Below, one piece after another: positions 56,006 to 64,000 of a stretch of 64,000 nucleotides of DNA (positions are counted from its first letter, which is position 1; each line of letters opens with the position of its first letter). Source of the DNA: Tenacibaculum sp. (GTDB lineage Bacteria > Bacteroidota > Bacteroidia > Flavobacteriales > Flavobacteriaceae); the NCBI GenBank assembly GCA_018456245.1, contig JAGYHQ010000001.1, forward strand, positions 1-64,000, read 5' to 3'. Position numbers and translations under genes: made by a program. Under the pieces are notes generated by a model. It made no database searches, had not been told where the DNA came from, and worked only from the letters and a program-made list of their open reading frames with translations.

Positions 56006-57001
56006 TTGAAAACAGCAATAGTCATATTAAATTGGAACGGAAGAAAACTACTTGAACAGTTTTTGCCATCTATCATTGAAAATAATTCAAATGATGCTGA
56101 AATTTATGTGGCTGACAATAATTCAACCGATACTTCAATTGATTTTGTTAGGAAAAATTTTCCTACTGTAAAAATTGTAAAAAACGAATCTAATGGCGGA
56201 TATGCAAAAGGTTATAATGACGCTTTAAAACATATAAAAGCCGATATTTATTGCTTAATTAATTCAGATATTGAAGTTACAAAAAATTGGTTACCTCCTA
56301 TTTTAGAAGTTTTTAAAAACGAAGAGAATACAACAATAATTCAACCTAAATTATTAGATTTTAAAGATAAAACTAAATTTGAATATGCAGGTGCAGGTGG
56401 TGGTTTTATAGATAAATTTGGCTACCCATATTGCCGTGGACGCATTTTTAATACTATTGAAACCGACAACAAACAATTTAATGATATTACAGAAATTTTT
56501 TGGGCATCAGGCGCTTGTTTATTTATTAGAAGTGAAGTTTTTCATAAACTAAACGGATTTGATGAAGACTATTTTGCTCATCAAGAAGAAATTGATTTAT
56601 GTTGGAGGGCAAAAAACAATGGTTATAATATTAAATATGTTGGAAACTCTACTGTTTATCACGTAGGTGGAGCTACTTTACAAGAAAGCAACCCTCATAA
56701 AACATATTTAAACTTTAGAAATAGTCTATTCAATATTTTAAAAAATACACCAAGTAAAACATTAATATTTGTTATTTTAACTCGGTTAATTTTAGACGGA
56801 ATTGCAGGAATAAAATTTATAATAGAACTTAAACCTATTCATTTTTGGTCTATTTTAAAAGCCCATTTTAGTTTTTATAAAAACTTACCTAAATTTGTAA
56901 AAAAGAGAAAAAAACTACAACAAAAATCGGGCTATTACAAACATAAATCTATAGTTTGGCAGTATTTTATTTTAGGTAAAAAAATGTTTAAAGATTTGTA
57001 A
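56006..57001 (+). CDS. Family 2 glycosyltransferase
   Basis: A 331-residue GT-A fold transferase of the rhamnosyltransferase/WbbL-like kind. Motifs are KTAIVILNWNGRKLLEQF, VADNNSTDTSID, NGGYAKGYNDALK, the metal-site INSDIEV and an EEIDLCWRAKNNGY acceptor-side motif. A C-terminal hydrophobic stretch may associate with the membrane. The start appears to be TTG at 56006, 11 nt after the HsdR-N-like gene; no ATG is in reach. It probably acts in surface polysaccharide or O-antigen synthesis; sugar unknown. Confidence 0.87.
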   Translation: MKTAIVILNWNGRKLLEQFLPSIIENNSNDAEIYVADNNSTDTSIDFVRKNFPTVKIVKNESNGGYAKGYNDALKHIKADIYCLINSDIEVTKNWLPPILEVFKNEENTTIIQPKLLDFKDKTKFEYAGAGGGFIDKFGYPYCRGRIFNTIETDNKQFNDITEIFWASGACLFIRSEVFHKLNGFDEDYFAHQEEIDLCWRAKNNGYNIKYVGNSTVYHVGGATLQESNPHKTYLNFRNSLFNILKNTPSKTLIFVILTRLILDGIAGIKFIIELKPIHFWSILKAHFSFYKNLPKFVKKRKKLQQKSGYYKHKSIVWQYFILGKKMFKDL

Positions 57002-57037
57002 TTTACATAAAACCCTACCTATAAAACTATAAGTAGT

Positions 57038-58342
57038 TTAAAAGGCATTAGTGTAAAAATCTAATAATTTTAAACTAAAAATATAATTATACTTTGCTTG
57101 AATTAAAGAGCTTTGAGCATTTACGTAATTATTTCTAACCCTGTTTAAATCATAAATTGTTGTTCTTCCTGCTGAAAAACTTTTTTGAGCAAAATCATAA
57201 GATAATTTTGCCAATTTTTCACTTTCTAAAAAGGCTAAATATTTTTCATAATTAGAATTAATATTAAAATAAATGGTTTGTATTTGTTGTTTTAACTTCT
57301 GTTTTTTTAATGTTAAATTGTTAGATGCTAATTGTTCTTTTTTTCTAAACTGTTTAATTTGTAAATTAGTTATCCCTTTATTAAAAATAGGTATTTGAAT
57401 ATTAATCCCTACTTTTTGTATAAAATTATTATCATATTGTTTATGAAAATCAATTTGTTTTTTGTGGAAATTATCTAAATAATTAGTAGAAACACCAGTA
57501 GTTAAATGAACTGATGGATAAAGATTTGTTTTAATAATTTCAGTTTGTTTTTTAGCTGAAAGAACACTAAGTTCGGCAGACTTTATATCAGGTTGATTTT
57601 TGTATGCTAAATTTAGCTTTTCATCTATTGGTTTTAGCTGGTGATGTAAAGAATTAGGTATTATAATATCTTCTATATCAAATGTTTTATAATTATCTAA
57701 TTGTAAAGTAATTGCTAAATTAAAAAGAGAACGATTAATGTCTATTTCAGCATTTTTTTGCTTCTGTTTTTCTCGTGCTAAATTAGCAAATGCTTCTACT
57801 TCTACAATTTTTGCTGTAGTTCCTATTTTGGTTGTTTTTTTAGCTCTTTCTAAAATTTTTTCTGAATTTAAAACGGACTCGTCAGCTATTTTTTTAACTT
57901 CTTTTTTTAATAAAATTTGTAAATATTGCTGAATAATTTGCAACCTTATTTTATTTTTAATTTGTTTCAAATCATAATCTGTAGCAGATAAATCATACTC
58001 ATTTTTTTCAATATTTTTATTAACTTTACCTGCATTAAAAACTAATAGTTGAGTGTTTAATGATAAATTATTAGAAAATAAATCATTCCTCATATGTTCT
58101 TCCTGAGGTGTTTTAAGCGTTCCAAATTGAAAATTATTGGTAATATTTCCTGTAATATTAGGTAAATATTCTCTTTTAGCAATCTTTACATTTTGTAATT
58201 GAATTTCTTTATTATACTTTCCTCCAATTACTTCTAAATTATTTTCAAATGCATAATTAAAACATTCTTCTAAACTCCATTTCTTTTGTGCATTAAGAAA
58301 TGAACAACAACTTAAAAATATTATACAACAAACCTTTTTCAT
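57038..58342 (-). CDS. TolC family outer-membrane channel of the peptide exporter
   Basis: A 434-residue outer-membrane efflux protein with signal peptide (KKVCCIIFLSCCSFLNAQK). It has two copies of the OEP pattern with long helices (TDYDLKQIKNKIRLQIIQQYLQILLKKEVKK..., and KKQTEIIKTNLYPSVHLTTGV). The start is the ATG at 58342; the track's first codon is a TTG. It lies 12 nt after the C39-ABC exporter on the same strand. With the HlyD adaptor and the ABC exporter it completes a type I secretion conduit across both membranes, here probably for the short GG-leader peptides at 62.9-63.4 kb. Confidence 0.9.
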   Translation of the reverse strand: MKKVCCIIFLSCCSFLNAQKKWSLEECFNYAFENNLEVIGGKYNKEIQLQNVKIAKREYLPNITGNITNNFQFGTLKTPQEEHMRNDLFSNNLSLNTQLLVFNAGKVNKNIEKNEYDLSATDYDLKQIKNKIRLQIIQQYLQILLKKEVKKIADESVLNSEKILERAKKTTKIGTTAKIVEVEAFANLAREKQKQKNAEIDINRSLFNLAITLQLDNYKTFDIEDIIIPNSLHHQLKPIDEKLNLAYKNQPDIKSAELSVLSAKKQTEIIKTNLYPSVHLTTGVSTNYLDNFHKKQIDFHKQYDNNFIQKVGINIQIPIFNKGITNLQIKQFRKKEQLASNNLTLKKQKLKQQIQTIYFNINSNYEKYLAFLESEKLAKLSYDFAQKSFSAGRTTIYDLNRVRNNYVNAQSSLIQAKYNYIFSLKLLDFYTNAF

Positions 58343-58353
58343 CAAACTTTTTT

Positions 58354-60510
58354 CTAATTAATTGAAACACTTTGCTTGTCCCACATTGTTTTATAAACCG
58401 AATTTTTAGATAATAATTTGTGATGAGTTCCTTCCTCAATAACTTTTCCTTCTTTAAGAACTAAAATTTTATCCGACTGAGCAATTGTACTTAACCTATG
58501 AGCAATTACAATCATTGTTTTACCTTGGCTTTTAAATTCGTTTAAAGTTTTTTGAATTACTTGTTCAGATGCTGTGTCTAACGAGGAGGTTGCTTCATCT
58601 AAAATTAAAATTTCAGGATTTTTATATAAAGCCCTGGCAATAGCAATACGCTGTTTTTGCCCCCCAGAGAGCAGAGCTCCATTTTCTCCAAGATAAGTTT
58701 GAAATCCGTCAGGAAGTTTTTCAATAAAATCCAAAATATCTAACTTTTTGGTAAGTTCAATAATACGTTGATGATTTGGAAAATCTTCTCCTAAAGCAAT
58801 ATTTTCTATTACATTACCCGAAAATAAATCAATTTGTTGAGGAACTACAGAAATCAAATTTCGTAAAGAATAATTTGAAATATAATTAACATCATAATCG
58901 CCAATCATTATTTTCCCTGATTTTAGGGTGTATAAATTTTGTAATAAGGCGGCTAAAGTTGTTTTTCCACTACCACTTTCTCCAACAATAGCAGTAGTTT
59001 TTCCTTTTTCTATTAGGCAATTAAAATCATCAAAAACATCAACCCTACTTCCATAACTAAAACTTACTTCCTTAAACTGAATATCACCAATTGCATCAGG
59101 TGTTAAGTCCATTTTATCCGTATTTTCTTCTCGTTCCAAATCCATAATTTCAAATAAACGGTCAGCGGCAATTAAAGCATTTTGTATGGTTTTATTCATT
59201 CCTATTAATTGAGAAATTGGGCTAGTAAAATAACCTATTAAAGCATAAAAAGACATTAGCTCCCCAGGGGTAATTTCTCTATCAATTACATATCCTGCAC
59301 CTACCCAAAGCAGTACAATTGTAAAAATTCTTGATAAAAATTCTGATGAATTTTGAGAGAATAAAGAATTTAAAATAGATTTATAAAAAGTTTTTAATAA
59401 AATAGAAAAACGATTATCCGTTTTATTATTAGCGAAAACCTCTACACCAAATTGTTTAATAGTTCTCACTGCTGTAATAGATTCTACCAAATGAGACTCT
59501 AATTCAGCACTTTCTTCCATTAATCTTCGTTCTACTTTTTTATTTAATTTGTTAGTTACCCAATATACTAAAAAATACAATGGTACAACTAAAACCATTA
59601 TTATTGCCAACTTCCAATAATACGAAAACATTAAAGCGAATGAGAAAATAACAATAAAAATATTAACAAATATTTGTATAGATACATCATTAATAAAAGC
59701 TCTAATTTTTACAGCATCATTTACACGAGAAATAATTTCCCCTACTTTCATTGTATCAAAAAAGCGTTGGGGTAATGAGAGTAGATGTTTATAGTAACCT
59801 AAAATTAAATATTTATCCATTTTTTGCCCCGTTTGTAAAACAAAAATACTTTTCATTACTCCTATAAATATTTGAAATAAAAGAATAACAATCATTCCTA
59901 AAGAAAGTAAATTTAATAATCTTCTATTACCGTCAATTAAAACATAATCGGTTATTTTTTCAATATAAATAGAAGTGGAAAGCCCTAAAATAGTATAAAT
60001 TAAAGCACCTACTAACGCTTGTAATAAAACACTTTTATGTGGCTGTACCAAGTTCCAAAATCTACTATAAATACTAGTGCTTTCATCTTTTTGCTGAAAA
60101 TATTCATTAGGCTGTAAAAGTACTAAAACACCAGTCCAAATTTTTGAAAAATCCTCAATGGTATATTCTTCTATTTTTCCGTATGCAGGATTCATTACAA
60201 AAACTTTTCCTTTTGCTACTTTATAAATAACTACAAAATGATGATATTGCTGATTAACTACAGTATGAGCAATTGCAGGAAGTGGAATGTTAGGTAAAGC
60301 ATCAACTCCACCCTTTACACCTTTGGCATTAAAGCCTAATTTTTCCAAACCTTGTACCAAGCCTAAAACATTTGTTCCTCTTGTATCAGTATGACAAAGT
60401 TGACGAATTTTGGCAATAGGCATTTTTACCCCATAATGTGCTGAAACAGATGCTAAGCAAGCCGCCCCACAATCTTTAATATCGTGTTGTTTTATTAAAA
60501 TATCTTTCAT
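58354..60510 (-). CDS. C39 peptidase-containing ABC exporter (bacteriocin processing)
   Basis: A 718-residue inner-membrane exporter. Residues about 1-135 are a C39 cysteine peptidase: catalytic Cys in IKQHDIKDCGAACLASVSAHYG and His/Asp in YHHFVVIYKV...VMNPAYG, which cuts leaders after a double glycine. Six helices follow (about 160-430), and then an ATPase with Walker A VGESGSGKTTLAALL, signature LLSGGQKQRIAIARA and Walker B ILILDEATSSLD. It cleaves the leader and exports the mature peptide. The likely substrates are the precursors at 62.9 and 63.2-63.4 kb, which have matching leaders. It was probably once directly downstream of hlyD, now separated by an inserted element. Confidence 0.93.
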   Translation of the reverse strand: MKDILIKQHDIKDCGAACLASVSAHYGVKMPIAKIRQLCHTDTRGTNVLGLVQGLEKLGFNAKGVKGGVDALPNIPLPAIAHTVVNQQYHHFVVIYKVAKGKVFVMNPAYGKIEEYTIEDFSKIWTGVLVLLQPNEYFQQKDESTSIYSRFWNLVQPHKSVLLQALVGALIYTILGLSTSIYIEKITDYVLIDGNRRLLNLLSLGMIVILLFQIFIGVMKSIFVLQTGQKMDKYLILGYYKHLLSLPQRFFDTMKVGEIISRVNDAVKIRAFINDVSIQIFVNIFIVIFSFALMFSYYWKLAIIMVLVVPLYFLVYWVTNKLNKKVERRLMEESAELESHLVESITAVRTIKQFGVEVFANNKTDNRFSILLKTFYKSILNSLFSQNSSEFLSRIFTIVLLWVGAGYVIDREITPGELMSFYALIGYFTSPISQLIGMNKTIQNALIAADRLFEIMDLEREENTDKMDLTPDAIGDIQFKEVSFSYGSRVDVFDDFNCLIEKGKTTAIVGESGSGKTTLAALLQNLYTLKSGKIMIGDYDVNYISNYSLRNLISVVPQQIDLFSGNVIENIALGEDFPNHQRIIELTKKLDILDFIEKLPDGFQTYLGENGALLSGGQKQRIAIARALYKNPEILILDEATSSLDTASEQVIQKTLNEFKSQGKTMIVIAHRLSTIAQSDKILVLKEGKVIEEGTHHKLLSKNSVYKTMWDKQSVSIN

Positions 60511-60518
60511 TTTCTTTA

Positions 60519-60582
60519 ATTAGGAATTAGAAATTAGTAGTTAGCAATTTCTAATTACTGACTACTAATTGCTAATTAATTC
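60519..60582. repeat. AATTAG-rich palindromic repeat, left flank of the IVP-like gene
   Basis: The stretch reads as short alternating units (ATTAGAAATTAG, GTTAGCAATT, CTACTAATTGCTAATTAATT) that pair with each other. A matching block lies on the other side of the four-helix-bundle gene (about 60997-61060). Such runs are known to surround IVP-type genes in Bacteroidetes. Confidence 0.7.
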
Positions 60583-60639
60583 ATATTTTTACACCATAAA
60601 TTACTCATTTCTAATTGCTCATTTCTAACTACTGATTGT

Positions 60640-61002
60640 ATGAATAAAGTTTTACACGTAAAATCTAAAAAAATTGCCATTCGTATTATTAATTTATATA
60701 AATTTTTGATTGAGAATAAGAAAGAATTTATTTTATAAAAACAACTTTTAAGGAGTGGTACCGCCATAGGGGCTTTAATAAAAGAAAGTGAATTTGCCCA
60801 AAGCAAAAAAGACTTTCTTAATAAATTGTACATCGCATTAAAAGAAGCAAATGAAAGTTTATATTGGTTAGAATTACTATCTGAAACAACATACATTAAT
60901 CCAGCAGAATTCAAATCACTTTCAAAAGATAATACCGAACTTATAAAACTTCTTGTATCCATAACAAAAACTTTAAAAACACAATTGGGAATTAAGAATT
61001 AG
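60640..61002 (+). pseudogene. Four-helix-bundle (23S rRNA-intervening-sequence type) protein gene with one in-frame stop
   Basis: Reading the plus strand from the ATG at 60640 gives VLHVKSKKIAIRIINLYKFLIENKKEFIL, a TAA at 60736-60738, and then in the same frame KQLLRSGTAIGALIKESEFAQSKKDFLNKLYIALKEANESLYWLELL, ending at a TAG at 61000. This is the four-helix-bundle family (TIGR02436-like), and the expected length of about 120 codons is kept. The single stop falls between helix 1 and the RSGxxIGA motif where family members have a serine or similar. It is on the opposite strand from the flanking operon, between AATTAG palindromes. Either a pseudogene or readthrough; the track's minus-strand ORF here is a shadow. 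Confidence 0.8.
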
Positions 61003-61060
61003 CAATTAGTAGTTAGGAATTAGAAATTACTAATTGTTAACTACTAATTGCTAATTAATT
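60997..61060. repeat. AATTAG-rich palindromic repeat, right flank of the IVP-like gene
   Basis: Reads AATTAGCAATTAGTAGTT then AACTACTAATTGCTAATTAATT, a palindrome, with a middle AATTAGAAATT. It supplies the last codons and TAG stop of the hlyD gene (KLISN then stop at 61044-61046) and the last codons of the four-helix-bundle gene. It resembles the block at 60519-60582. Confidence 0.7.
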
Positions 61061-62132
61061 TAGGGTTTAACCAATCATCTACTCGGTCAAACAATAATTG
61101 CCATAATGTTCTATCAATAAGATGAAAACGAGTAGTTAATGTCATTCCTTTACCTATTTGCCCTTTATAACCATTTTTAAGTTGCAAATAATCTTTATCC
61201 ATTGTGCAAAGCACACGGAAAAAAGCCTCCCCTGTTTGTTTATTAACCGTAATATTTTGGTTTATTTCTTTTACACTCCCCTCTAATAGCCCCCATTGAT
61301 TATAATTATAAGTATCTACTTGAAATTTTACTTTTTGTTTTAGGTTAATAAACCCAATATCTTTTGGAGATACAAAACACTCTACCACCAAAGATTCTTC
61401 TGGTGAAATTTCACCTACACTTTGCCCTTGTATTATAAAATTATTTTTTTGAAGACCTGAAAAATTAACCAATCTACCCGAAATAGGAGCAGTAATAACG
61501 TAATTTTTTTGTTGTTGGGTTATTTTAGTAATCTCAGAATTTAACGAACGAAGTTGCCGTTCTACTTGCCTCTTTTGGGTTTGCCATTGTGCCATTTGTT
61601 GTTCTTTAATACTTGTAACTTGGCGGGTAAGCCCCTTGTAATTATAATAAAACTTGTCATACTCTGCTTTGGGTATAACGCCTTGTTCGTACAAAAGTTT
61701 GGCTCTGTCATAATCTTTTTTTGATAAAGACAATTGAGTTTTTACTTGTGCTATTTTTTCTTGCATTGCAGAAAGTTCTTTTTGGTATTGCCCTGTTTGT
61801 AAGCCTTTATAATTATTTTTAGTTAATTTGTTAAGGTCATTAAGTTGGGCTTTAAAATCACTTAATTGGTTTTGTTGTAACGTTTTTTGTGTAACCAATT
61901 GCTCAGAAATAACAACAAAAAGTGTGTCTCCTTTAGTTATTTTTTGGTTATTTTTTAACAAGTTACAAAATACAACTCTTCCGCTAACCACTGCATTAAT
62001 TTTAGTATTTTCAGTAATAGAACGCACCGTACCACGAGAAGAAGAAGTAACAGGAATATTTATAAAAGGCAACAAAATAAAAATTGCTATGATGAATAGC
62101 AATGATGATATATAAATAATCTTTTGAGACAT
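61044..62132 (-). CDS. HlyD family adaptor of the peptide exporter
   Basis: A 362-residue membrane-fusion protein. One N-terminal anchor (IIYISSLLFIIAIFILLPFINIPV) is followed by a split biotinyl-lipoyl domain (GTVRSITENTKINAVVSGRVVFCN and TAPISGRLVNFSG), a long coiled-coil hairpin (LQQNQLSDFKAQLNDLNKL...VERQLRSLNSEITKITQQQ) and a beta-barrel part (GEISPEESLVVECFVSPKDIGFI). It links the C39-ABC exporter to the TolC channel. Its stop and last few codons lie within the AATTAG repeat, so the C-terminus may be altered by the insertion. The CPBP gene is 39 nt upstream. Confidence 0.9.
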   Translation of the reverse strand: MSQKIIYISSLLFIIAIFILLPFINIPVTSSSRGTVRSITENTKINAVVSGRVVFCNLLKNNQKITKGDTLFVVISEQLVTQKTLQQNQLSDFKAQLNDLNKLTKNNYKGLQTGQYQKELSAMQEKIAQVKTQLSLSKKDYDRAKLLYEQGVIPKAEYDKFYYNYKGLTRQVTSIKEQQMAQWQTQKRQVERQLRSLNSEITKITQQQKNYVITAPISGRLVNFSGLQKNNFIIQGQSVGEISPEESLVVECFVSPKDIGFINLKQKVKFQVDTYNYNQWGLLEGSVKEINQNITVNKQTGEAFFRVLCTMDKDYLQLKNGYKGQIGKGMTLTTRFHLIDRTLWQLLFDRVDDWLNPKLISN

Positions 62133-62171
62133 AATTAACTTTATTTACTCATCTTTTCCTATAAAAATAGG

Positions 62172-62783
62172 TTAATGGTATAAAATATGATTTAAAATTA
62201 ATGTAAATAAATTATCCAATGAATGTAATAAAATAGCATGAAGAATACCAAAATTAACCCTTAAATATATTAAACAAATAGATACAGGAACATAAGTAAT
62301 AAATAAAATAAGAATTTTTTGATATGAATTGATAGATTCATCATCAAGATAAAATGTATGACAAAGACTAAAAATTAAACAATTTATAATCCACCAAAAG
62401 ATTTTATTATTCTCATAAACTAATTCTAAATTTTTAATATTTCTTATAAACAAAAAAACAGCGTAAGAAAAAATTATAAAGGGAATTAAAATCAAATTTT
62501 TAAAATAGTAATAAAATACAATAAAATTAATTATAATAGGCATAAATTGAAATATAATAGCACTATTATTTTTTCTTAACCCAAATCTAAAAAGTATTTC
62601 CTCAACAATAGGTGCTATAACAACAGCAGATATAATAACACCAAAACCTACCTTAGCCCCATTGTAAGGAGAAATTCCCAACCAAATTTTAAAGTTATCT
62701 ACAATTAAATAACCATAGAGTAATGAAAAAATTAAACAAAAAATAAGAATTATAAAGGGGCTTTTAATAATATTTTGTTTCAT
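62172..62783 (-). CDS. CPBP family protein in the bacteriocin locus, possible immunity/processing factor
   Basis: A 203-residue polytopic membrane protein with CPBP motif 1 EEILFRFGLRK, a later CHTFYL (motif 2 His) and LLHSLDNL (motif 3 His). I use the ATG at 62783 (MKQNIIKSPFIILIFCLIF); the track's TTG lies within a terminator-like hairpin. CPBP proteins act as self-immunity proteins for class II bacteriocins in Lactobacillales (PlnI, SkkI types), so its place directly after the precursors suggests that role. This is contextual. It could also be a general protease. Confidence 0.75.
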   Translation of the reverse strand: MKQNIIKSPFIILIFCLIFSLLYGYLIVDNFKIWLGISPYNGAKVGFGVIISAVVIAPIVEEILFRFGLRKNNSAIIFQFMPIIINFIVFYYYFKNLILIPFIIFSYAVFLFIRNIKNLELVYENNKIFWWIINCLIFSLCHTFYLDDESINSYQKILILFITYVPVSICLIYLRVNFGILHAILLHSLDNLFTLILNHILYH

Positions 62784-62805
62784 ACTAAAATTATTTTTTA
62801 ACAAA

Positions 62806-62843
62806 ATTAGGCACAACTTATATACTATTAAATTGTGCCTAAT
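62806..62843 (-). terminator. Hairpin between the peptide genes and the export genes
   Basis: ATTAGGCACAA and its exact complement TTGTGCCTAAT form an 11-bp stem with a 16-nt loop. On the minus strand TTTTG and then an A-run follow. It lies 20 nt past the first precursor's stop and would let the short peptide transcripts end before the CPBP-hlyD-ABC-tolC genes, with readthrough supplying the latter. Confidence 0.6.
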
Positions 62844-62863
62844 ATCTTTTTGAAAGATTAATA

Positions 62864-63001
62864 TTAACCTAACACTACAGATGACTTATCATATCTAAAA
62901 CATTTAGCTATAACCCCAATCCCAACAGCCATGTAATCTAAAAAGTCTTTTCCTCCTTCAATATTAGTTAATTCATCTTTTGATAATTCTCTTAATTCCA
63001 T
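62864..63001 (-). CDS. Double-glycine leader peptide precursor 1 (bacteriocin-like)
   Basis: A 45-residue gene missed by the track. The leader MELRELSKDELTNIEGG has the ELSxxEL..I.GG pattern recognised by C39 peptidases, and the mature part is 28 residues (KDFLDYMAVGIGVIAKCFRYDKS...) with an AVGIG (AxxxG) motif, one Cys and a cationic end. It lies upstream of CPBP, hlyD, C39-ABC and tolC, all on the same strand. The peptide is probably secreted and antibacterial, but a signalling role is equally compatible. Confidence 0.75.
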   Translation of the reverse strand: MELRELSKDELTNIEGGKDFLDYMAVGIGVIAKCFRYDKSSVVLG

Positions 63002-63005
63002 TATA

Positions 63006-63164
63006 TCAATTTAAAAAGTTATTTAATATATTTTTTATATTTAACAAAAATTTATCAATATCCATATGTAATATATTACTAAGTACTGCTACAATAATAA
63101 TCTTAATTATACCTTTAATAATTTTTTTGTATTTTGTATTGTATTCAATGTTAAATATATTCAC
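63006..63164 (-). CDS. Possible very small hydrophobic ORF between the precursors
   Basis: A 52-codon frame with only a GTG start and no ATG before residue 34. The sequence (VNIFNIEYNTKYKKIIKGIIKIIIVAVLSNILHMD...) has one hydrophobic segment and a basic N-terminus. Position between two peptide genes would suit a small immunity protein, but AT-rich DNA gives such frames by chance. It has no homology I recognise. Confidence 0.2.
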   Translation of the reverse strand: MNIFNIEYNTKYKKIIKGIIKIIIVAVLSNILHMDIDKFLLNIKNILNNFLN

Positions 63165-63184
63165 AATAATTAATTATGTTATTA

Positions 63185-63352
63185 CTAAAATGAATTATAT
63201 CCTTCCATAAATGAAGCTCCTAATTCATCAAAATCTTTAGCCATTAATGATCCTACAAAAGCTCCTAATAAAACATACCAAATTCCCCCATCAGTTTTTC
63301 TCATTTCTGTAGCATTCAATTCTTGAACGCCTAAATTACTTAAATTTTTCAT
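63185..63352 (-). CDS. Double-glycine leader peptide precursor 2 (class IIb-like bacteriocin)
   Basis: A 55-residue gene missed by the track. MKNLSNLGVQELNATEMRKTDGG is a leader of the kind seen in Bacteroidetes peptides annotated as class IIb bacteriocins (lactobin A/cerein 7B family), ending in GG. The mature part IWYVLLGAFVGSLMAKDFDELGASFMEGYNSF has a GAFVG (GxxxG) motif, an aromatic hydrophobic start and an acidic C-terminus. It is the promoter-proximal gene of the locus. Export by the C39-ABC/HlyD/TolC set downstream is expected. Confidence 0.82.
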   Translation of the reverse strand: MKNLSNLGVQELNATEMRKTDGGIWYVLLGAFVGSLMAKDFDELGASFMEGYNSF

Positions 63353-63534
63353 AATATATAAAGTTTAATTAGTTAAAAAATATTTTTTGTTAGAAAACAT
63401 AAAATTGTGCACATAATTATGTTTTTGTAACACCTCAAAGATGAGTATATAAAAACAAACTACCTATTCCAAAAATTATAAAAACTATTCTAAAAAGAAT
63501 ATTTTTTAAATTTTTTATATTTAACTAAAAAAAT

Positions 63535-63542
63535 TACCTTTG
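63535..63542 (+). promoter_or_regulatory. Putative -7 box for the XRE regulator gene
   Basis: TACCTTTG matches TAnnTTTG 33 nt before the ATG. The 222-nt divergent region (63353-63574) also holds small palindromes such as CATAATTATG and GTGCAC that might be operators; nothing else is evident there. Confidence 0.45.
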
Positions 63543-63574
63543 TGGGTACTATATATATTATTAGGTAATAAATT

Positions 63575-63931
63575 ATGAATATTGGTACTAAAATAAGACA
63601 ATTAAGAGAGGAAAAACAAATGAGCCAAACAGATTTAGCTTATATGTTAAATATTGAGCAAGCCACCTTATCTAAAATAGAAAGTAACAAAACTGAAAAA
63701 TTAAACTTTTTTACAATTGATAAATTATGCCAAATATTTAATAAAAACTTTGATTATTTTTTACCAACACAAGGAAATACCTATAATGTAGAAACTAATA
63801 ATGGAGTTGTTGTAGGAACTTATAATAATTTTCCCCCAGAATTATTAAATTTAGTAAAAGATATTATACACAACCACGAACAACAAACTCTTAAAATAAA
63901 AGAATTAGAAGAGCAATTAAAGAATAGATAA
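63575..63931 (+). CDS. XRE family helix-turn-helix regulator
   Basis: A 118-residue DNA-binding protein. The HTH (MNIGTKIRQLREEKQMSQTDLAYMLNIEQATLSKIESNKTEKLNFFTIDKLCQIF) occupies the first 60 residues, and the C-terminal part contains a Tyr/Asn-Val-rich middle (NTYNVETNNGVVVGTYNNF) and a helical tail ending in KIKELEEQLKNR. It is divergent from the peptide precursors, so it could regulate them. Many similar XRE genes occur independently in Flavobacteriia, so the link is inferred. The last 69 nt of the window show no gene. Confidence 0.85.
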   Translation: MNIGTKIRQLREEKQMSQTDLAYMLNIEQATLSKIESNKTEKLNFFTIDKLCQIFNKNFDYFLPTQGNTYNVETNNGVVVGTYNNFPPELLNLVKDIIHNHEQQTLKIKELEEQLKNR

Positions 63932-64000
63932 TTTTTAATTTAATCAATAACAAAACTTCTACAAAACATCCAAACTTCCTTTCCCCTCTCTTAAAATTTG

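Follow-up and report, generated by a model that had tools for sequence, protein, structure and literature searches.

Near one end of a 64,000-nucleotide stretch of DNA from Tenacibaculum sp. (the window), two short double-glycine precursor genes stand beside an exporter, which raises the question of whether their products act together as a two-peptide bacteriocin and which gene might protect the producer. Both precursors, proposed in an earlier sequence-only reading, proved genuine; the two frames lie on the minus strand, with leaders that end in TDGG (peptide A) and IEGG (peptide B). The complete C39-ABC/HlyD/TolC exporter claimed for the same strand was likewise confirmed by family profile matches of all three genes (Table 1). 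That reading overlooked the gene that fills the gap between the peptide genes (ORF52), the CPBP gene before hlyD and an element that parts hlyD from the C39 gene; nor did it recognise the cassette as acquired. The minus-strand order is peptide A, ORF52, peptide B, CPBP, HlyD, C39-ABC and TolC, with an XRE-type gene divergent from them. Judging from sequence comparison, the locus, a complete cassette gained by horizontal transfer, is likely to encode a class IIb-like bacteriocin of two unmodified peptides; immunity would come from ORF52 and perhaps also from the CPBP protein.

Table 1 Features of the acquired segment and look-alike ORFs of related loci
Feature	Position	Strand	Remarks
Acquired segment	57002..63958		about 6.96 kb; between convergent glycosyltransferase gene and Sua5 gene
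TolC-family outer-membrane channel	57038..58345	-	PF02321
C39 peptidase/ABC exporter	58354..60510	-	PF03412, PF00664, PF00005; TIGR01193 543 bits (cut-off 524)
Inserted element with IVP gene	60516..61058	+	overlaps hlyD 3' end
HlyD-family periplasmic adaptor	61044..62132	-	PF13437
CPBP/Rce1-like intramembrane protease	62172..62816	-	PF02517 27 bits (cut-off 22.4); candidate second immunity gene
Peptide B precursor	62864..63001	-	45 aa; IEGG peptide of the earlier reading
ORF52	63006..63164	-	52 aa; GTG start; one hydrophobic helix, no double-glycine leader; candidate immunity peptide
Peptide A precursor	63185..63352	-	55 aa; TDGG peptide of the earlier reading
XRE-type regulator, divergent	63575..63931	+	PF13443, PF01381; inside acquired segment; candidate regulator
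Small leaderless single-helix ORF next to a double-glycine pair, resembling cognate mature peptide; candidate decoy	L011 1026-1157		
Same	L042 6533-6667		
Same	L088 3383-3499		
Same	L025 6419-6526		
Same	L040 6317-6445		
Same	L034 5571-5750		
Same	L073 10632-10733		

The three small genes and the exporter

Peptide A consists of a leader of 23 aa, MKNLSNLGVQELNATEMRKTDGG, and a mature part of 32 aa, IWYVLLGAFVGSLMAKDFDELGASFMEGYNSF, with a calculated mass of 3579.1 Da, a net charge of about -3 and no cysteine. In peptide B, a leader of 17 aa, MELRELSKDELTNIEGG, is followed by a mature part of 28 aa, KDFLDYMAVGIGVIAKCFRYDKSSVVLG, with a calculated mass of 3095.6 Da and one cysteine. The precursor of B exceeds the cut-off of NCBIfam TIGR01847, a leader domain (17.1 against 15.7 bits); that of A shows a weak likeness to TIGR03949, the lactobin A/cerein 7B family of class IIb bacteriocins, under its cut-off (14.4 against 21.5), which is reached by peptide A of the relative L024. 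When the 64 kb were scanned with a loose leader pattern, just two further ORFs were obtained, neither of them plausible as a precursor, and hence the leaders of A and B go beyond chance. A TAnnTTTG promoter was sought upstream of peptide A and was not found.

Conservation of the frames, on which the earlier claim depended, was found in a single F. glaciei locus (L052 5424/5635), whose peptide pair is the closest to A and B and homologous to them in leader and mature part alike. None of 5000 shuffles aligned as well at full length for either peptide; for the mature parts, the figures were 0/5000 for A and 4/5000 for B. Conservation between the two organisms was highest at codon position 2, and dN/dS between two Chryseobacterium-type loci was 0.12 for A and 0.27 for B, indicating purifying selection. 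A genome of the window's own family (G318) was 100% identical to the F. glaciei locus, which identifies that family as Flavobacteriaceae.

ORF52 begins 20 bp downstream of the peptide A gene and ends 4 bp ahead of the peptide B gene. Its homologue is a 30-aa ORF directly after the F. glaciei pair, which aligns without gaps (17/29 identical, 0/5000 shuffles as good), is by far its best match among small transmembrane (TM) ORFs (75 against 38 for the next) and shows codon-position identities of 0.62/0.83/0.34, a coding signature. Three Weeksellaceae loci (L024, L098 and L100) also carry a single-helix ORF of 38-42 aa between peptides A and B, as in the window; the order is A, small TM gene, B, CPBP, HlyD and C39-ABC in the former two, and the same without the CPBP gene in L100. 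The dN/dS of this small TM gene in Weeksellaceae was 0.74, a value drawn from 42 codons. The opposite strand of ORF52 is open too (76 aa), but the homologue in F. glaciei and the ORFs at the corresponding place in L024, L098 and L100 led to the rejection of a chance frame. A, ORF52 and B are thus coding sequences that form a conserved trio, in an order met again in Chryseobacterium-type loci, and ORF52, whose place and sequence are both conserved, is probably the immunity gene of the cassette.

The exporter has the parts expected for type I secretion, a C39-ABC protein, an HlyD-type adaptor and a TolC-type channel together, and the peptidase cysteine and histidine are present (Cys14 and His91). 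The third catalytic residue of the C39 domain is Asn107 (60190-60192) in place of Asp; among 96 relatives, this position is Asp in 90 and Asn in 5. The inserted element has imperfect terminal inverted repeats of about 62 bp (85%) and a gene for a 23S rRNA IVP/four-helix-bundle protein with an in-frame TAA; no second whole copy was found in this genome. It separates hlyD from the C39 gene, which in close Weeksellaceae-type relatives are only about 12-125 bp apart, and could lower the expression of C39-ABC. It might be argued from the position of this element, from its overlap with the 3' end of hlyD and from the rare Asn107 that the cassette is decaying, its exporter operon split and the system no longer expressed. 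This is unlikely, since every cassette gene is open, the stop lies in the element and not in the host genes, and Asn107 occurs in a few relatives too.

Borders and origin of the cassette

The cassette was horizontally acquired from another bacterial family. Its HlyD protein is 69-71% identical to those of Weeksellaceae, as against 36-40% in its own genus, where only a few congeners have any relative (37-40%) and, among 168 genomes, only this one has a match at E <= 1e-85; the family was recognised as Weeksellaceae by loci that are 86-88% DNA-identical to Chryseobacterium loci. The neighbouring Sua5 gene shows the opposite trend, with up to 85% identity within the genus and 59% in that family. 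The gap between the glycosyltransferase and Sua5 genes, 6.96 kb here, is at most about 175 bp, and often 10-35 bp, in 11 of 14 congeners that were searched with the two genes. At the same junction (57001-63959; L125, L126), other genes are inserted in two congeners (about 3.8 kb in G002 and about 2.0 kb in G012), which marks it as a site where insertions vary within the genus. In a tree of the adaptor, the window falls inside a Chryseobacterium/Cloacibacterium-type clade (support 0.99), although the donor is not fixed by this, because one member (L010) comes from a genome labelled Flavobacterium sp. UBA6195.

A plasmid origin found no close source, all plasmid HlyD matches being under 60% identity. 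A mis-binned contig was rejected as well; the flanking genes are typical of the genus, with identities of about 75-85% and 69-77%, and lie side by side in congeners. The XRE gene, preceded by TACCTTTG 40 bp upstream of its start, was rejected as a conserved part of the system, as weak similarity was seen in only two of 80 named loci.

The same genome (1.59 Mb at an estimated completeness of 96.5%; other sampled genomes of the genus that are more than 90% complete have 2.1-5.5 Mb) carries a second C39/HlyD locus with a double-glycine peptide (..VITGGKGILDKIKDIVDDINLLCSNGNCGCPA) (L102, G000:C43, 1071-8118). This also encodes a likely radical-SAM/SPASM-type protein (CxxxCxxC), a TonB-receptor-like protein of 776 aa and a C39-ABC protein truncated at the contig end; read by eye, it is probably a modified-peptide system.

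Pairing of the peptides and comparison with known systems

It had been suggested earlier that the differing leaders might mark two independent peptides. This was not borne out. When 80 related exporter loci were scanned together with further relatives, pairs of double-glycine peptides were seen to adjoin the exporters, the two genes lying a median of 18 bp apart. The leaders differ systematically by gene position, the first following approximately NLNxxELNAQExxExxGG and the second LxxxELxxIxGG. On leave-one-out scoring over 39 non-redundant tandem pairs, the first leader scored higher as first type in 32 (AUC 0.80), and the window leaders, at +8.6 for A and -2.9 for B, were squarely of the first and second type. 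As differing leaders are the rule in related tandem pairs, the difference is no argument for independence. That A and B are one-peptide bacteriocins with a common exporter is accordingly improbable; the mature parts are dissimilar and some related loci have single peptides or multiple pairs, but the tight tandem pairing, the gene-1/gene-2 leader types of the 39 pairs and the joint occurrence of A and B homologues in F. glaciei speak against it.

The GxxxG and AxxxG motifs to which the sequence-only reading pointed do exist, GxxxG in peptide B and only AxxxG in peptide A, but the motif of a single peptide was rejected as evidence; both are common in shuffles, and GxxxG appears in 31% of those of peptide B. 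Taken over 78 mature peptides, GxxxG was observed 78 times against 35.5 expected, with a z of 8.1 that is optimistic because the peptides are partly related, whereas GxG, GxxG, GxxxxG and GxxxxxG showed no enrichment in the same set, with the same kinship bias. Hence, it is the family-wide enrichment that counts as evidence.

In having adjacent precursor genes with double-glycine leaders and GxxxG/AxxxG motifs, the window resembles class IIb systems such as lactococcin G, the plantaricins and especially gallocin A, with which it also shares a small third gene (immunity there, a candidate here), a C39-ABC exporter and CPBP/Abi proteins. It is unlike them in being Gram-negative (Bacteroidota) with HlyD and TolC, in its unrelated mature sequences, in its two leader types by gene position and in the small TM gene between the peptides. 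Class IIb peptides are usually cationic, and the acidic peptide A, unlike the usual, counts against the class IIb-like reading.

Cdz of Caulobacter is a contact-dependent, two-protein type I-secreted bacteriocin with a small TM immunity protein (PMC5380434). Its likeness to the window extends to two small glycine-zipper proteins, type I secretion, a small TM protein and horizontally acquired islands, but CdzC and CdzD are larger (86 and 84 aa) and remain on the cell surface, and CdzI is predicted to have three TM segments, unlike the single-helix ORF52 (PMC5380434). The bacteroidetocins, too, are double-glycine peptides of Bacteroidetes with a C39-ABC transporter; unlike the window peptides, they are single, class IIa-like cysteine peptides accompanied by a 5-TM protein and a thiol oxidoreductase, and no immunity gene was found for them (PMC6671954). 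No gene for a thiol oxidoreductase or 5-TM protein was found in 57002-63958. Class II bacteriocins of Bacteroidota and other Gram-negative phyla have been predicted in bulk (PMC12648078). Few have been characterised, among them the single-peptide bacteroidetocins (PMC6671954). A search of the open-licence literature, which is not proof of absence, gave no account of this family of pairs, nor of guards that resemble the toxin in sequence.

Proposed mode of action and self-protection

To judge from the protein families named above, the ABC exporter would recognise the precursors of A and B by their double-glycine leaders and cut them with its C39 domain, and secretion would proceed via HlyD and TolC. 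The mature peptides, as short helices with GxxxG/AxxxG faces, would jointly enter the envelope of close relatives and make it leaky. ORF52 would remain in the inner membrane of the producer and stop the A/B complex from assembling, and the CPBP protein may be a second, Abi-type immunity protein or an accessory protease.

Double-glycine/C39 systems export pheromones too, and with a divergent XRE regulator inside the segment, the peptides could be signals read by this protein or by a receptor elsewhere. We regard this as doubtful, as similarity to the XRE protein is so seldom seen in the named loci, no histidine kinase lies in the segment, and the family-wide GxxxG zipper with recurrent membrane proteins is better suited to a membrane-active toxin with immunity. 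Gonococcal Naps are double-glycine peptides encoded on an island and linked to C39, for which no antimicrobial activity could be detected (PMC11798529), and the window peptides might likewise act on the producer's own population (autolysis); this is very improbable, as the cassette has candidate immunity genes of its own and a full exporter. The bacteriocin reading is preferred, and two kinds of candidate immunity gene come with it.

The CPBP protein has the motifs EEILFR, FSLCH and HSLDN and probably starts at an ATG at 62783. Of 33 pairs, 15 have a CPBP gene in the 2 kb downstream, as compared with a background of 4% at random places, a count somewhat favoured by a profile seeded partly with genes adjoining pairs; on an independent Pfam check, 7 of 10 sampled proteins passed the cut-off and two more scored under it. 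CPBP/Abi proteins have been tied to bacteriocin self-immunity (Kjos 2010, as cited in PMC8692603). The presence of the gene does not settle this role, because the CaaX protease gene neighbouring Cdz is dispensable (PMC5380434).

Small leaderless TM ORFs adjoin 24 of 54 non-redundant pairs, as against 5 in a mirrored opposite-strand control. They resemble the mature peptides of their own locus best, with a mean normalised rank of 0.19 (0.5 expected) and 10 of 26 in the top 5% (p 2.5e-7); 452 hydrophobic ORFs of the same loci gave a mean rank of 0.48, with 5.8% in the top 5%. Two mimic candidates were left out of the final test, L191, which is really another double-glycine peptide, and L143. The clearest candidates for toxin look-alike guards are in L011, L042, L088, L025 and L040; the small TM protein and the peptide read ..FVGYVTGKVFYYCTH and ..GAGYVCGKAYYYATH in L042, ..GGYAIGKFMAHWENSK and ..TGYAIGKFHAHSENNK in L011, and ..FSYNLGKDLYHIFN and ..FGYSMGKDLYHIIN in L088. 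ORF52 aligns with peptide A without gaps over 29 residues, with a shared DxD, but the likeness is weak and only suggestive (rank 5.5 of 59, shuffle P 0.05), and ORF52 was not established as a clear mimic.

That the small TM ORFs are closer to their own toxin than to those of other loci suggests immunity by decoy. It is conceivable, though we put it forward tentatively, that self-protection in two-peptide loci of Bacteroidota is often provided by a leaderless single-helix decoy which copies the tail of one mature peptide. Such a protein would be retained in the inner membrane of the producer and bind the other peptide, preventing an active complex from forming; ORF52 would be a diverged example. 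Decayed duplicates of peptide genes are a less favoured origin of the look-alikes, because many loci have such ORFs, which carry an additional charged N-terminus. For gallocin A, an immunity peptide that is a predicted structural look-alike has been described and competition proposed (PMC10100652).

The analysis yields a layout that can be tested across a widespread family of flavobacteria, namely which peptides pair and which gene, tiny and unannotated, is likely to confer immunity. The loci in which the tail of the guard matches that of the toxin make the decoy model directly testable.
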